A stretch of 64,000 bases of DNA from Nitzschia sp. DOCU1 (Eukaryota > Bacillariophyta > Bacillariophyceae > Bacillariales > Bacillariaceae): the NCBI GenBank assembly GCA_951394045.1, contig OX596001.1, positions 806,001 to 870,000 on the forward strand. Direction: 5' to 3'. The notes beneath the pieces are model-generated. The model searched no databases. It was not told the DNA's origin and worked only from the letters and a program-made list of their open reading frames with translations. The stretch's first letter is position 1, and each line of letters starts with the position of its first letter. A program made the position numbers and the translations under genes. Positions 1,702-12,202 of this stretch are shown piece by piece.

Positions 1702-4389
1702 ATGTCGTCCCGTGAACATCCCATCGAAGTGCTGCAAGATGATAGCGATGATGAAAGCGATGTGGATAGCATTGGGCTCATCTCGGAGAGCAGTGAAGAT
1801 GGCAGCAATGAGGATGAGAGGGAAGTCATCGAGCTGATGAGTGACGATGACGCGGAACCAGCGGCAAAGATTGCTGCTGCCGTAACTCCTGATCGCAACA
1901 GTCCCGAATTGAGGTACGATAGTGACAGCGATGATTATGAGGATGCCGAGGAGGGACCAACGGAAATGCCAGGGGTAGCTCCCGATGGCAATAACCCAGC
2001 ATTAATGGCAGCTCAACAACTTCAGGATGATCCGCCACCGGCTGCACAAGGCAGGAGGCAGGATCGTCCCGATGATTCGGCACGAAAGAGAGCCGCAAAG
2101 AAGACCAAGCGGCCGAGCGGTGTCATTGTTGAGAAAGGCCATTCAGTAGGCGATGTCTACTGGGAGGTGGAATCGATTTGTGGTTATCGCCCGAAGTCGG
2201 CCGACAACGACGAAGAGGAATGGCTTGTGTCTTGGGTCGGCTACCCCAAGAGGACTTGGGAGCTAGACTCCAATCTTTGTGATAGCGCAAAACAAGAAGC
2301 AGAGCGATATCGCACAGCTTTGGAGCAGAAGGGGAAGGCCGGTGACAATCCGATCGATATCCTCTCATCGGCATCTGATGACGATTATAGTGACGATGAA
2401 AGTGAAGACGACAGTGACGATGACCTGGGATCAATGCAGGGCGCCGAGCGGTCACATCAACAGGGCAAGCAAAAGCCCCCCCGTAGCTCAGGCACTCGTT
2501 CCAAAGAAAGAGGAGGCAAAAAGAGGAAGAGCTCAAATAATAAGAAGTCTTCTTCCTCGAACTGGCGAAAGAGAGTAAGCCGCCATCGGGATCCAGAAAC
2601 GAATAGCCCCGTGCTAAGATTTGACGATCCTTTCAGGACACCTGATGCCATGAGGCAGCACACAAAAGAACTGATACAAGGCACACAGGCCGAGAACAGA
2701 TACTTCCTCGCTTATTTGATTGGAGATAGGCCTCAACATAGCAAAATACTTCAGTGCGCTATGTCAGCAAATCAGATAAAGGATTTGGAAAAAGAGCTAA
2801 AGAAGGAAAAATTTCCTGACGGGCTTGAGTATACCCTATTTGCTGCAAAAGACCACGGGGCCAAGGGCGATAGGCAGTTTCTGACAAAGAATGAGATTGA
2901 GTTTGTTTATGTCTGTACGGGTGGGACATGTTCCAGAACCGGAAAAACCTATACCCCTTGGAGGCTAGATGAAGCCCTGGAGCGAATCGCCAACTTTAGT
3001 GCACTGCCCACGACAAAGGTCCCTGCACGCTTGGAGCTTTTCTTGACTCCTGCGAAAGACGAGAAGTCTATTCTTCGCAACCTCAGCGCTTCCAACTTTG
3101 AGGTACTGAAAGAGGAAGACTCGCACATGGGCTGCGGGTTTATTCCTCAAGATTTTTTGGCACGTCTGTTTCCCACGAAGAAAAAGGAGACCATTGCTAA
3201 GATTGTGGCACTTCAAGTGCGAATTTTTGCTCCGCGAATCGGGGTAGCAAAAGGCGAACTGGTGGTGAAGCAAGGTATCAACAAGATCCAAGTGCCACCA
3301 TCGATGATAAAAGTTGGGCCCTCCCTTGTATGCGACGATGAGTGGGCTATTGTTGTCGTGAAAGGCACAGACCCCAGTAACCCCAACGAAAATTTGGGCA
3401 AGCACTTGGATCCCGACTCGGACAGTCCATGTAACAGTTTCAGAGAGGAATCTAAGATCAAATTAAGTGAAATGTAAGAGGGAAAGCCCTGATGGTTGGT
3501 GGAGAAAACAATGCCACAATTGCTGACGCGCGTTTCTTGTATTTAAAGGTATCAAATTTTGCTTTGTGGCCTTGGTGTCTCAGAAGTCCTCATGGAGAAC
3601 TATGTGCGACAAGCACGTTCGCTGCAGGGTCTCAAACACACGCATGTCATGGGCGTGTGCGACCCTACAGGATTGCTTCCCGAAGGTTCTGTCTTCATTA
3701 CAGGCCATTGCGCGAATGAATCAGGAGATCGAATTCACTTTTCGGAATCGCTCAGTGAAATTTTCGTCTCGCGCTCGCCTTGTTTAGATCCCACGGATGG
3801 CAAGCTCGTACCTCTTGCGAGTAGTAAGCCGCCACAGATGTCGCAAGACACGTGGGAATGGTTGCGCAACTTGCCGTTTGGGGTAATCATCTTCGGCAAG
3901 CCTCGGGATCGTTTAAATTGTGCTCCTCTCCCCATGCTCATTGGTGACGGCGATTTGGACGGGGACCGTTACTTTATTATTTGGGACAAAGCCATACTGA
4001 AGTCCCTGGGTAAAACGTTTCGTAGTCCAAGGATGCAAGCAGCCATAAAGAAACAAGAAGCCGAAGTTCGTGCACAAAACATCAATTTGAATGAAGGCCC
4101 GTTGCCTCCTCATAAGGGTCCCGACAACTGGCTCGAACTAGCCCAAGAACGAATCCTGCAATTGGGGCACCTGACTTGTGTTGGAAAGGCACGAGGGCAT
4201 TTTTACAAGAAAAGCCACGCTGTTTCCAAAGCAAGTGCCGAAGGAATCTGGGACACAGATGCCCGAGCGTTTGGAAGGGCTTTCAAGGACGCGTTGGATG
4301 CTCTGAAGCACGGGAATCCTGTGATGTTGCCTCAACGGCTCCAGGAATCAACTGATAAAACGCTCCACCAGTTTATTACTTGGACTTGA
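1702..4389 (+). CDS. Chromodomain fused to cellular RNA-dependent RNA polymerase (RNA-silencing type)
   Basis: Exons are 1702-3473 and 3549-4389; the 75-base intron reads GTAAGA...TTTAAAG and keeps frame, giving 870 aa. The start is the ATG at 1702 in a CACCATG context. Layout: acidic N-terminus; basic stretch RKRAAKKTKRPSG (about 130-142); chromodomain at about 147-205 with YWEVES, LVSWVGYP and RTWE, where W154, W178 and Y181 align with the HP1 methyl-lysine cage; acidic then Lys/Arg/Ser-rich linker; RdRP from about 330. The polymerase has the first barrel (VAKGELVV...PPSMIKV, SMIK at 534-537), GVCDPTG, and the catalytic DLDGD at 726-730 followed by RYFIIWD. DLDGD with SMxK is the signature of cellular two-barrel RdRPs that make dsRNA for small-RNA pathways, not of viral enzymes. 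A nuclear, H3K9me- or H3K27me-guided RdRP is inference. It converges on the ECM29 gene, with 89 bases between stops. Confidence 0.85.
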
Positions 4390-4478
4390 TGATTCGGTCA
4401 GAGTTTTATAAGATTACTTTACATTAGCAATGACTACTTTTCCAGATTAAGCTAGTGGTGCAACTGAGCCATTGCTGT

Positions 4479-7400
4479 TTAGGGCCACCAGGCCATTAAG
4501 CTTAAAATGCGACTTGCCAACTCAGTCACTTTTGCCTCCGGATCCGTGAGCGAGCGCTTTGCCAACGTAGAAACGATTTCTTTTTGTGGAAGGACGGCCT
4601 CTAAAAGGAGTTGTCGTTCTTGGGTCGGATGGTCTTTTTGGCTTGAATTTCCACAGCGAGAAACCAGAGCATGGAGTGCCTCAAGGCCAGCGTGCCTGAA
4701 CAATAATTAGTTGGGTAGGTTAGAACAGCTCGGTCAATTATTCATTTTTTGTCGACAGCGATGTACTCACCGAACTTTCCAAAATTTACGGTCTTTCATG
4801 GCTAACGACGCGCATTCCACAACGGAAGCAATTGTTCCATAGTCCCGCAGAAAGTTTGAATTCGCTTTCGAAACCAAACGCGCGCAGGCCATGAGAGCTG
4901 AAGACTTGATTGTCCACGGGCGTTCCACAATCGAACATTGTTCGAAGATCTTGATGAGCTCAGGAACCTTTACGTGTGTGTTATTTGGCGATCCCTCGCT
5001 CGAGCCATCAAAGTCTTTCCAAAACGAGGCTGCAAAGCAGTCGATGGCTTTGGACACTATCAAGGGCGATTCTTCCTTCTGTTCGCTATCATCACTTTCG
5101 TTGTCCGTAAAAAGTGGGAGCAAGCGACTTGCCAGAAAAGCAAAGACAATTTTCTTTTGTTCAAGTTCATGGACCGTGGCATCTAACGATTCCAATACCA
5201 GGCGGAGGGCATTCAGAGCGGAAGATCGGTATGGAAGCACCTCTTCTTCCTTCACGGACATCGTACTTCGTTCTGTCGGAAAGGCCTGAACAAGAAACAT
5301 TCTGCATATTCCAACGTAAGTCGGGACTAATTTTCTCGCTTCAGGCATGTCAACATCTTCAGCAGCCGATTCGAGACCACTAGTTTCCGCCTCCTCGTCC
5401 AGCGACCCATGGTCGTCATCAAAGCCCAATCGTGCTTGAGCAACTGGTTCTTCATTTTGATCCAGAGACATATCGTTAGCTTGTTCCGATTCGTCAGCCA
5501 AATCTCGTTCTGCTTCTTGGTTGAAGCGGCGGTCGTCCAGAAACAAGCAATTGATTTGGTCTGTATCTGTCAGAATAAGAGGCGCTCGGAGCCGAGCGGA
5601 AGAAAAATTATCTATCTCACCCAACCCTAGAATTTCTCTTGAATCTTCCACGTTAGCAAGTGCTGATGACCACTTCGATGCAATGAGGGCACATGCTTCC
5701 ACAACCTTCTCCTTGCCAGACCAGAGCCGTGTGTCCGCAATGGCGTTTACAAGAGCAGCCAAAGCAGCATTGCTCGCTTCTGCTCGTCTCTGGGCACGAA
5801 CTGACTCCTCAAGGATAAAATCTTTCGCGTTACCATTCAACCTGCGAGGGGCCGGCGACAGGATTTCTTTTCTAGCCAGTTCCTTCAGTGCGTCGGCTCC
5901 TGTAACACGGCGCGCCCACGAAACGTCCCTCACTGCCTTCACGCATTCAGCAACAAGAGATATAATCAACTTCTCTTCCAACAACGTGCCAAAACCATCG
6001 GCTGCGCCAGAATGATTTGCCGTGGATCCACCCTCCTCCCAAACGTCCGAAAACAGGCTCGCCACTTTGGGATCAGTATCCCTCATTCCAAGGAAGGCAA
6101 CTGGAAGGACGCGACGGCACCAAATATCAGAGTTTCCGCCGTCGAGAAATTGATTGGACGCTTTTACGGCAATCGCTCGCAAAGTGATGGCAGCAGCTTT
6201 TCTTGCCGCTGGATCATCGTTGTTGCCGGTTGACGAGTTGTACTTGTGGGAAGCACGCAAGGCCAAAGATCGCACACTGGAACCCGGACAAAGAGCTGCT
6301 AGGTTCCCACAAGCATGAGCATACTTATCGCGGGCCGCTTGCCCACGTTCGCGCTCGGATGCCCAATACAAAGCGCGGAGCAAGCTAACAGAGGGGTTTG
6401 TAGAGGACGGACCACTATTCCGAAAGGCATCCGGACAAGTAGAGCAAAGCGTCGATACACAGTCTGCCGCAGCTGTTCTCGTGGTCAACCCAGCAGAAAG
6501 CCGAATCGCCGAATCCAATTCTGGAACGACGGCTTTCTGAATTTTAATATCCATATCTGGCATCATGTCCAAACATTTCGTCACCGCCATCGCCATCGGT
6601 CCACTTTGAACGACTTGAAGTCTCAATCTTTCCAGAGCGTCGTATGACTCTCCAGATCCCCGGTCTTGCCCAGCGGCCCTCACCTGCAAGTAGTTGAATG
6701 CAGCCGGTTCCAAACTTGACATTGAGAGCAGCAGCGAGCGTAACAGATCGGGAACAAGCGGTTGAAGGATGGCAGGGTTTGCGACATCAACAATACCAAC
6801 AAGACATGAAACACAGACTCCAGCCGCTTCTGCACAGGGTTGCTTGAGCCCGTGTTTGATCAGCCATCGAAGGGCGGTAGCAGCTGCAGCGCTCGCGTCT
6901 CGTTCGTGGGATATGATGCTGTTGGAGCTTTCTTCTTCTTCCTTAGGCGTTTGCGGGTTGACCAGGCGCAACGTCAAACTACGGACTCCTCGTCCAAGCG
7001 TTTCGCCGGCTTCGCGTACATTGGATCTCACGTCATCCAAAGATCGCATGGCCACTCGCCAAAGTCGAAGCAGCCGGATGCCAGCACTAGTCACTTCAGT
7101 TGTAGTCTTGGTAACCACATCATCATCAAATAAAACCTCTAGTCCACCACCAAGCTCTTTCCATGATCTGCCAACAATCACCTGCGCCAAAGCAGCACAT
7201 GCCCCATATCTTGTCCGCCAAAGTTTGCTGGTAGTATCGTCAATAAGTGTATCAATCGTCACAAGCAAATGCTGAGAAATCAACGACCGAGCCTCGGCGC
7301 CGCCTCCCGTGAGCCCATTCCACAGATTCTGCATCTGTTCTCGTGTGTCCTTGTTAGGAGAGTGGCAACCGCGTAGGATTCGAGGCATGAGTTTCCCCAA

Positions 7401-10400
7401 GTGCCCTTTGAGAGCAACGCGCATCTCGGCTGCATTGCTGCGGCTCCCAAAAGACGACGACTGCTGCCCTAGGAGGGCCGAAGGACCATAGTCTCGCCCT
7501 TCGGAGGTCCAAGCAGCATTAGATACAGACAACATAAGAAGGGCGTACAATATATCCGGTCGACCGAGTGACATGGCCGCCGCTGCCATTTCTCGATATG
7601 CTCCAAGCGATGCTTCACCTATTCCAGATGCTCCACCGACTTCTGCGTCAGCCATTGGAGCGTCGTTGGTGCTATCCGCAGAGGCGCTTGCTTCGGCTCT
7701 TCTTCTCTCCGCCGCTTGCTCCGCGGTTTCTTGCATCGCACTCCCGCCATGGATTGTAGTTTGCCCAAATGCTCTGAGTAATCTCCCATTCATCTCATCG
7801 CCAGCATTTTGCGAGGACGAAAGATTCGCTAGACTTCGGCACGCAGCCAGGCCAAGGCAGCAGCTTTCACGTGACAAATGTTTGCTCTTGGGATCTGACA
7901 AGAGACTTATGAAACATCGCTGAATATCATCGAGGCGCCTACCTAGCTCCTGGACCAGACATCTATCAGCGCGGCTGGAATGGAGGTTGACCTGGAGAAA
8001 CACATTGTAAGGAAGTAGTCCGACAAGTTTTGTGATCCACAACGACCCCAACGACTCTGCTTACCTGTTTTGCTGCTCTAGCTACAACCGCTAATAAAGC
8101 GGGTGCGGTTGCGGTGCGCTTCTGAGGATTGCTCTCATATTTGGCTCGTCGCAATAGAACATAGATCACTTGCTGGTGAGGAGGAAGCCCCTTGGAGAAC
8201 TCTTCCTCCAATGAATCTGGCCAATCATCTTGTTCGGTACTCCATTTCACATCCTTTGGACTGTATGCGTCGGCATACTCGGCCAGTGCCTCACCAGCCC
8301 AAAGGGCGACTTCTTCTTCCTTTCGGAAGGCGACCGAGCCCAACAGGGAAAAGAGAGCATCCACACATTTAAGACGGGCCTCGCCTAGTTCGTTGCCAGT
8401 ATTAGCGCCCGAGGTCGCCGTCGTTGCCGCCAAGCAGGTCCCTGCTGACTTGGCCAGCTTGGAAACTCGAGCGACATCAATCGTTTCTCCGTTGCCATAT
8501 TTGCGAATGGCGTCCGTCAACTTTGATAAAGCGACGGATGCACCAGGAATCAATGCGTCGTCCATGACTGGCGCGTCAAGTTGATCATAGGAGCACGCAA
8601 TGGCCAATCCATCAGCAAAGGCATTGGCTACCACGTCATCGGAGCTCATAACTTCGTTGCCCATGTGACTCATTATCCTAGCGAGAACATCGAATGTTAA
8701 AAGACAAAGAACGAACAGGGAGTTTGGCAACCCGACATACAAACCTACCTTGACGCCGATGCTCCCATAGACGACTCGGGATCTTGATAAACAGCCGTGC
8801 GTTGCCTATAGACCTGAATACACGATCCCGCCAAAAAGGCTGCCCCATGCTTGTTCCCGACTGAAGATACTGATCGCTCCATAATCTCCTCGCATGTCCG
8901 CAACGTAGATTGGACCTTTTCCACCCAAACCTCGTCCTTCCATGGCGACGAGTCGTTTTGTAAATGTCCCCAACATTTCGCCAATAGTCGACGTGCTTTT
9001 GACGAAGGGCATGACAAGGCCAAGTCACAAAGCGTATCGGGTCCCAAGTCCACCTCTTGCGTACTAGCCACCAAAGAGCGGGCTAGGATGGAGGTGGATA
9101 GACACAAGGACAAGGCACCCGCACATTGGTCCAACCATGTCAAGTTTTCTTGACGAGCAGACGCCACATGACCAGCACCACTCCGAGTCGCCTCTACAAT
9201 CGATGTGGCCAAGGCTGCCACAAACAATTTCATGGAGTCATCGTCATCATCGCCGCCGTAGACATCATGAAGAAGACACGACAGTAAATACTCGATTGCC
9301 ACTGCTCGACCCTTGGGCGTGAATTCCCAATAACTAGGCCGCCATGATGATGATCCACTGCCACCGACTCCTCGCGTCGTCGCGGTAGAATCCGTCAATA
9401 ACACTCGTGCCAATTGTCCAAAGTCGGCCAATGTAGTGGTAGCAGTTGTATCCAAAGTGTCTTGGTCCTTATTTTTCGTCGCTAGCAACGTGTCTCGAGC
9501 AATCGCAGAGGCTGTCACATCGGCATCTCCCGCCACAAAACACAACAAATGACAAGCATTGGTAATATCCAAAGACAATAACAAATCACTGGCCCAACGG
9601 GCGGCCGCCACACGGGCTTGTTTGGGCTGAAAATGTTGAGCCGAATTCCAAAGGAGAGGCAATAATTGTTTGGCCAAGTTATTGTCGGTTGGCTGGGCAG
9701 CTGTTGTTGTTGTTGTTGTCGTCGTCGTCGCAACCGTTGACGTGGAAGTAGCTGGTTGACCCCACGGATTATCCACGACCGGGGTAGTTGTTGCCTTGCT
9801 GTTGTTCTCGGCAATTTGTTTCTGTTGCTCCTTGACAAGCCGACAATACGAGGACAACAAGGCATCCAAGGCTGCTACCGCCCGTGGCCGTAAGACTTCT
9901 TCCTCTCCAGTAATACATCCAAACAAGAGCTTGGCGGTTTCCATATTGCTGCTATTGTCGTCGTTTGTACTTGCACCCGCCGCAAAGAGCCATTCACCCT
10001 TCCAATATGCTTGAGAACTTCGACAAAGGATACAAATGGCTCCATACAAGGCATCTCGAACAGCAATATTACCTTCACTACCGACACTGTTGTTATTGCC
10101 ATTGTTGGACGTAGTAGATCTCGAAGATAGTACCGTCGATAGGCAAGTACAAGCGATTCCCATGCATTTGGCCAATACTAGAGCCAAGGATTCATTATTG
10201 TCATTGGATGTGGTCGATAATGTCGTCAATCGTATGACCAAGGCTTGTAATAATTGTGCCGACGCGATATAGGGCTTACCCCTTGCCAGAGTTAGCCCAG
10301 TAGCTGTATGTAATTCCCCTAGGCGTTTGGATGTTGCCAAAATGATCAAACTAGCAATTCCCTTGTAGTCTTGCTGTTGAAACAGGCTGGGTGAATCTTG

Positions 10401-11729
10401 TAAAATTTGACAGGCAAATTCCATCAAGGCACAAAACGTGGTTGACAGGTCATTGGACGATATCATGCGACGTTTCAAAGCTAGCGTAGCTTGTGTATTC
10501 CCTGAATCTTCGTGCGTCCACCCCAGTCCCTGGGATGTTGATAAGAGCATTTGGGCATTACTCGAACCAACGCACAACGTCAACAATTCCTGTAACAAGA
10601 CTTGAGCATTTCCAAATGGTTCTTGTTGTTGTTGTTGTGTATCCATGTATTGTTTCCAATACAGACTGGCGCGCTGCGAAACTTCGGGAGTCGAATCGCC
10701 TGCGGCTACCATGAGCAAGGCACAGGTCCGCGTTTTATTCCGAATTGACTCAGAGTCGGACGACGATAAGAACAACCCCCATGATTTCGAGGGAGCAATC
10801 CAATCGATCATGCGACCCTTGATTTCGACTAATTTTTGTCGAGAGGCCATTTCGGCCGCCCAATCTCGTGCCGTTGTAGAATTTCCTTTGGCCAAACGTT
10901 CTTGTCCGGCCTGACTTGCCCCCGGGGGTGGAACATTGGAATTGAGGGGGGACGTTTGATACAACAAGACATCCAAGATCAAATCATAGAGCGTCGATGC
11001 GACTTTGGAATCTTGGGCAATCAATCGACGAGCCTGGGCAATGGGGTCATGGTCAGTGTCTTCGGCTGATATAGCCGTAGTACTTTCGGTAGCATTTGTA
11101 GCCTTGAATCGTTTATTGGAAGCCGTCGTACCATTGACTAGTGTTCCAGGCCGTTCTTGGGGTTGCCATAACAAGATCGAATCCATGGTTCTCAATAATA
11201 AATGAGTCGTTTGATGCCATTGCGATTTCGTCGAAGCCTGCTGGAGCTGATCCGGCGTCAGGGTCGAAAAATGGGAATGCCATACTAAGAGGCCGGGCAG
11301 TAGCCTGGCGGCTTCATCAGCCGCTATCAATCGCCCCACGCCCAAGGTTAAAAACGCCAAGCCTAAATTGAGAGTAAACGGATCCACGTGGGGTTTGACT
11401 TTGTTCCCGTCCAGCAAAAACAATTGCAGAATTCCGAGGCAAGGAAGTGGCGTCGACTGGTCGTCTCGGACTCGTTTCATGACATGGGACAACATTTCCA
11501 CTAATCGAGCATGAATCTTGGAATATAACGCGGCAAGCGTGGCATCTGTCGCCAAAAGTTGAGCTTGATGATTGTCTCCAATGCGTTGCAACAATCGTGG
11601 CAATAACTTGTCGAGGACGGCGCCTAATTCTGTCGAAGTAGACAACAACGCCAAGCGATGCGAGACGCGATTTAAACTTGCCAAGTCGGATTGAGCCGTC
11701 GCAATGGGATCGGCTGGGGAAGACGCCAT
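4479..11729 (-). CDS. ECM29: ECM29-like proteasome adaptor/scaffold (HEAT-repeat protein)
   Basis: Four exons in coding order: 11729-8749, 8677-8065, 7991-4771, 4695-4479. All junctions are good GT-AG sites (CAAG/GTAGGT, ACAG/GTAAGC, TTCG/GTGAGT), and joined they give 2343 aa in frame. The start is the ATG at 11729 (ATCATGGCG context); an in-frame ATG at 11780 is possible. ECM29 is a HEAT-repeat protein that tethers and remodels 26S proteasomes. Recognition rests on the N-terminal pattern LPRLLQRIG...EMLSHVMKRVR...FLTLGVGRL, the mid-region LLSDPKSKHLSRESCCLGL, and the C-terminal HACGNLAALCPGS...LPVAFLGMRDTDPKVASLF. It is longer than the roughly 1850 aa usual in yeast and animals, largely from Ser/Thr/Gln-rich insertions in exon 1, including a run of ten Thr. 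The family call is from motif memory, without alignment. Confidence 0.8.
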
Positions 11730-12202
11730 GATAATAGTTTGTATTCTATGAGCAACGTCAACAATTGGAAGTTGTTCCACATCCCATTGTCAAAAATGCA
11801 AAGAACCTTGCCGAAGCGATTCGATCAGACTGATGCAGATTTTGTCTTGCATTTTGGATTCGGCCCGCTGGTCGGCCAGACGGTAAAAGAGACCAGGAGT
11901 AGTAACATCTCTCTGGAAAGGCAGCTGAGTCTCAAGACTCATCCGACTTTTTCACCCATTAGGGATCATCAGCGCTAGTAGTTTGCACACCTACAGAGAC
12001 GATGAAACCGAGCTTTGTGCTTGCATCCCTCATCAATTTCATTGAGTGAGTTCAGGAGGCAGTTGGGCTGCTGCCAAGATGCTCGAAGTAAAGCGAGTTT
12101 TTCTTCTAAGCATATTGTATAGACCTTAGGAGTTGGCCATTGCTACAATGAATTTACCCAATGTTCCGACTGCTGGCAGCCATAGTTCTTCATAAAGGTC
12201 TT
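11730..12202. other. Intergenic: ECM29 promoter side and 3' flank of the next minus gene
   Basis: About 470 bases between the 5' end of the ECM29-like gene and the 3' end of the membrane-protein gene. No ORF with domain or composition support, no RNA gene and no repeat recognised. It must hold the ECM29 promoter. Confidence 0.5.

Follow-up and report, generated by a model that had tools for sequence, protein, structure and literature searches.

A Nitzschia gene joins a chromodomain to an RNA-silencing RNA-dependent RNA polymerase, with a predicted role at chromatin

Can a single protein both read methylated chromatin and synthesise double-stranded RNA (dsRNA) on it? The question is raised by a gene at positions 1702-4389 (+ strand, as are all of its features given below) in a 64,000-nucleotide stretch of contig OX596001.1 of Nitzschia sp. 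DOCU1, referred to here as the window. It is almost certain that this gene encodes one protein in which a chromodomain is joined to an RNA-dependent RNA polymerase (RdRP) of the RNA interference (RNAi) type. A sequence-only reading of the window had described a chromodomain in one frame with an RdRP carrying the motifs SMIK and DLDGD, and both domains and both motifs are found in a single gene. The fusion is shared with relatives, and its function is predicted.

The protein has 870 residues and is encoded by two exons (1702-3473 joined to 3549-4389), its start at 1702 being the first ATG of an open frame that begins at 1543. Exon 1 (1702-3473; 590 codons and 2 nt) encodes in order an acidic N-terminus, a basic patch, the chromodomain, a linker and the first half of the RdRP including SMIK, the chromodomain and the first polymerase part sharing one uninterrupted frame. 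Exon 2 (3549-4389) encodes the remaining RdRP, with the catalytic DLDGD and the stop. The 75-nt intron between them (3474-3548) has GT-AG ends, and is predicted from the sequence and from continuity with uninterrupted homologues: if retained, it starts with an in-frame stop, and in the alignment the related proteins P0001, P0002, P0003 and P0006 (relatives are cited by P number) are continuous across the junction. The predicted protein P0030 stops at the corresponding Met, as expected if splicing is ignored, a hint that its gene has this intron as well; P0046 extends a few residues past the point where P0030 ends. The basic patch, RKRAAKKTKR (residues 128-137; 2083-2112), is a possible nuclear localisation signal, and the basic patches together suggest a nuclear location for the protein.

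The chromodomain (residues about 152-212; 2155-2337) was identified by profile, alignment and predicted fold. The Pfam profile PF00385 gives 18.6 bits on the exon 1 protein and 23.5 on a stretch of 80 residues, and the curated cut-off of 25.1 is not reached. A profile of related chromodomains, trained without the window domain, gives 53.4 bits (E 1.1e-15), the best score among 940 shuffled sequences being 4.6 bits. The predicted fold is a three-stranded sheet with a C-terminal helix, the short canonical chromodomain, and it matches the chromodomains of SUV39H1, Rhino, MPP8, HP1 and Chp1 (3g7l). A chance resemblance is ruled out by the predicted fold, the structure matches and the leave-out score. 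The sequence-only reading had left the domain assignments to profile scores and structure prediction; the standard chromodomain profile fell short, while the leave-out profile stood well above noise and the predicted folds were obtained for the chromodomain and for the first half of the polymerase region.

The same reading had proposed a complete aromatic cage, and the alignments place its three residues accordingly. W154 (2161-2163) aligns in HMMER to the Phe of the first strand of CBX7, and W178 (2233-2235) and Y181 (2242-2244) align to the W and Y of the SUV39H1 sequence KWRGY and to W and W in CBX7. The cage of MPP8 consists of Phe59, Trp80 and Tyr83 (PMC3192050), and structural alignment to MPP8 (3r93; model position 12 corresponding to chain position 57) puts W154 on Phe59, if the first three residues are ungapped. 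HP1 tolerates Trp at the first cage position (PMC7764450). By alignment, the cage reads W/W/Y in the window protein and in the first domain of P0030, W/W/C in the second domain of P0030, in P0046 and in P0006, Y/W/gap in P0042, and W/W/W and Y/W/Y in the two domains of P0016. This variability means that methyl-lysine binding may not extend to the whole group.

The RdRP region (residues about 335-870; 2704-4386, with the intron inside it) matches PF05183 at 71.8 bits, against a cut-off of 23.8, which bears out the assignment to the RNA-silencing type. The polymerase is of the eukaryotic RNAi type by its sequence, and activity is predicted: SMIK (residues 534-537; 3301-3312) has its S, M and K invariant in eight aligned rows, and DLDGD (residues 726-730; 3952-3966) lies in the second barrel with the DxDGD motif intact.

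How widely is the fusion shared? A protein search with residues 300-870 found at least 44 proteins at E <=0.01 among 7993 scored candidates. A narrow region search (526 candidates scored) returned P0030 and the new P0046, and an alignment search (7988 scored) gave, among the matches listed, P0030 and P0045, a chromodomain protein without RdRP. A tree was built from the search relatives, the window protein and a second RdRP of the same genome, with 47 rows, none dropped, and P0045 left out for its lack of an RdRP. GDxDGD is present in 43 of these rows, the remaining four containing part of the RdRP region only. A chromodomain stands ahead of the RdRP in six rows: the window protein, P0030, P0046, P0006, P0042 and P0016. 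The five relatives thus carry, within single predicted proteins from other records, the linked architecture that the sequence-only reading had suggested looking for in related genomes. Three of them (P0006, P0016, P0030) pass the Pfam Chromo cut-off, P0042 matches chromo-like Pfam families weakly, and for P0046 Pfam Chromo gives no match at E 0.5. Among these five relatives, the chromodomain occurs together with the catalytic RdRP half only in P0006 and P0016, in which Pfam detects the RdRP too; in the others the RdRP part, its first half, was identified from its resemblance to the window protein (P0030, E 1.4e-52; P0042, 5.3e-36; P0046, 2.6e-34).

The window protein, P0030 and P0046 form a clade with support 99/94, its sister group (P0030, P0046) all with a chromodomain. 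This clade is enclosed in one of ten rows (100/100) that adds P0001, P0002, P0003, P0006, P0042, P0004 and P0005; P0016 is placed elsewhere on the tree. By path length, the rows nearest to the window protein are P0030, P0001, P0003 and then P0046. The chromodomain label requires four state changes, a count that does not distinguish gains from losses, and a domain missing from a predicted gene model carries little evidential weight. Other modules are found in the same family. P0003 has an MBD-like match (19 bits, cut-off 21) and a PDZ-like match (18.8, cut-off 23.2), both under cut-off, and is a possible methyl-DNA-reading RdRP; P0004 and P0005 are RdRPs with HA repeats. KOW-type Pfam matches (E <=0.5) occur in 22 of the 47 rows, seven of them above the KOW cut-off. 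KOW was labelled on the tree in 23 rows, P0011 and P0021 by eye only, with the weakly matching P0044 unlabelled; the chromodomain count is unaffected. It is worth adding that KOW or Spt5-KOW-like matches lie beside the RdRPs of P0010, P0019, P0023 (a Symbiodinium protein named RDR2), P0025, P0028, P0032 and others, mostly N-terminally, and C-terminally in P0014.

The rest of the genome contains further silencing genes. Argonaute is represented by Piwi and PAZ matches at two loci (C3 and C17), RNase III matches occur at three places, one with an in-frame stop (the RNase III domain only being considered), and C5-DNA-methylase matches at seven. The C17 Argonaute locus (C17:785910-788353) shares its strand with the chromodomain-RdRP gene and precedes it by about 19 kb, several other open frames intervening. 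The second RdRP, at 2092-5739 of locus L011 (C14), is an uninterrupted stop-to-stop frame of 1215 residues, 36% identical to the window protein over residues 419-869; instead of a chromodomain it has a weak KOW match and, by eye, a second KOW-like stretch. The closest match in the genome to the window chromodomain is in a stand-alone protein of C11 (L027, 3479-4297), where an HA domain is followed by a chromodomain with 43% identity to that of the window and a Y/W/Y cage. The HA domain in this protein and the HA repeats in P0004 and P0005 suggest domain shuffling. On C1, two frames that score equally for Chromo show a weak match to the window (E 0.056), which bears on a possible origin from a retrotransposon (chromovirus). 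Silicon transporters (PF03842), typical of diatoms, match at 18 places and, together with the kinship to Nitzschia proteins, identify the genome as that of a diatom, a stramenopile as the sequence-only reading had supposed.

What would such a protein do? Chromatin-tethered dsRNA synthesis is the function that we consider somewhat probable. Through the N-terminal chromodomain the enzyme would bind H3 tails that carry methylated K9 and/or K27 at transposons and repeats, and the C-terminal polymerase, by the function of its family, would copy nascent transcripts at chromatin into dsRNA. RNase III proteins may then cut the dsRNA, and small-RNA-loaded Argonaute may reinforce silencing, the domains for both being present in the genome. 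That the two activities are fused in nature argues strongly, on genetic grounds, for their place in a single pathway. Adaptor proteins and complexes are needed in yeast and plants to couple histone methylation to RdRP. The marks themselves are known from a diatom: Phaeodactylum tricornutum has H3K9me2/3 and H3K27me3, which with DNA methylation mark the repressed state (PMC10421102), its transposable elements (TEs) carry H3K27me3 together with H3K9me3 (PMC6586856), and small RNAs accompany TE methylation (PMC4247016). If the proposal holds, how diatoms connect small RNAs to TE methylation becomes testable via one gene and one point mutation, and the fusion would be a minimal tool for directing dsRNA synthesis to methylated chromatin. 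The earlier observation of a fusion is confirmed, and its interpretation, that one polypeptide reads methylated histone and makes dsRNA on site, is partly supported.

Several results weigh against this proposal. The chromodomain lies under the Pfam cut-off and scores poorly when only its sequence is compared with solved chromodomains; P0030, P0042 and P0046 contain the first RdRP part only (238-267 core residues); and the Nitzschia relatives P0001 and P0002 show no chromodomain, which truncated gene models could explain. The variation in the cage, whose third residue is replaced by Cys in P0006, P0046 and the second domain of P0030 and by a gap in P0042, also counts against the proposal, and favours the idea that the partner of the chromodomain is not a histone but some other methylated protein, such as an autoregulatory tail or a further silencing factor, or another partner altogether, the RdRP being tethered to a complex and not directly to nucleosomes. 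Scans for Pre-SET and chromoshadow domains, which did not extend to E(Z)-type enzymes, gave no match in the genome and none in 14 controls, and so carry no information either way. The fold matches include cpSRP43 chromodomains complexed with Alb3 or cpSRP54 tails, which are non-histone partners, and for the MPP8 chromodomain there is also a structure in complex with a methylated peptide from DNMT3A (3svm). However, the window protein retains all three cage aromatics, and many H3K9me3 complexes are among its top fold matches; we regard a non-histone partner as unlikely. Slightly less likely again is that the N-terminal module mainly binds nucleic acid and aids template capture, with chromo, KOW, HA and MBD modules as adaptors to nucleic acid or chromatin that can replace one another within this family of RdRPs. 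The KOW-type, HA and MBD-like matches beside the RdRP in relatives, and the KOW match and KOW-like stretch of the second RdRP, speak for it, whereas the short canonical fold with its full cage does not, and the basic patches of the linker could bind RNA without a chromodomain.

It is improbable that the RdRP acts in cytoplasmic silencing of viral or transposon RNA with the chromodomain as a functionless relic. The rarity of the domain (just six of the 47 rows, and neither of the two Nitzschia relatives) is what such a relic would explain, but cage and fold persist despite a divergence that leaves 47.5% identity to the P0030 domain, and the basic patches suggest nuclear import. That two genes, or a misassembly, have been mistaken for one has a negligible probability and was rejected, given that the same domain order recurs in five proteins from other records and that the window has it in one unbroken frame. 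Chromatin-tethered dsRNA synthesis remains the reading that we prefer. More tentatively, and with rather less confidence, diatoms and related algae may have evolved a family of silencing RdRPs with built-in readers of chromatin or nucleic acid: a chromodomain in the window protein, and in relatives modules of MBD-like, KOW and HA type. The member with the chromodomain would then be a self-contained enzyme of heterochromatin nucleation and amplification, perhaps with more than one fusion origin, which reads H3K9/K27 methylation and makes dsRNA there, so that a single protein would close the silencing loop.

Three SUMO-interaction-like motifs, each a hydrophobic core followed by an acidic run, lie at residues 8, 42 and 218 (1723-1734, 1825-1836 and 2353-2364). 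The triplet was matched in none of 5000 shuffles of residues 1-335; the pattern was framed post hoc and is not used here, and P0030 and P0046 have no such motifs. Neither the Rfam scan nor the tRNA scan gave a match in the window. The convergent neighbour on the - strand (4767-11789) has two frames, 4767-8057 and 8748-11789, that match families of the proteasome adaptor ECM29; the frame between them (7969-8805) matched no family.

How does the protein compare with known systems? No description of a chromodomain-RdRP fusion appears among the literature matches listed, in agreement with the sequence-only reading, which knew of none; that scope did not take in preprints, the majority of subscription journals or the principal earlier treatment of RNAi genes in diatoms (De Riso et al., 2009). 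A review (Maumus et al., 2011, PMC3145265) counts one RdRP homologue in P. tricornutum and two in Thalassiosira pseudonana, and in its available portions tabulates JMJ-CHROMO fusions and does not mention a chromodomain-RdRP. These diatom proteins join a chromodomain to a chromatin-related enzyme, as the window protein does, but the enzyme is a JmjC demethylase. The motifs drawn for T. pseudonana RNAi genes in the accessible part of PMC3155517 include no chromodomain. The Phytophthora RdRP (PMC4030286) is a stramenopile RNAi polymerase like that of the window, but, as far as that source's available part describes it, is fused to a DEAD/H helicase and not to a chromodomain.

The chromodomains of HP1, SUV39H1, MPP8 and Rhino share their fold and cage positions with the window domain, which differs in a longer loop before strand 2 and a short GY-TW turn (GYPKRTW); its first cage Trp resembles the engineered HP1 Y24W (6mha). 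With QDE-1 and plant RDR2 (PF05183) the window protein shares DLDGD and, in the first half, the fold of the catalytic core, but its polymerase region is only about 530 residues long. Plant RDR2 acts beside Pol IV (7eu0). To our knowledge, neither QDE-1 nor plant RDR2 has a chromodomain. A close parallel is Schizosaccharomyces pombe, in which a chromodomain reader, Chp1, and an RNAi polymerase, Rdp1, likewise serve heterochromatic silencing. There, reader and polymerase are two proteins in two complexes, RITS and RDRC, whereas the window protein is one polypeptide that would unite the tasks divided between them.
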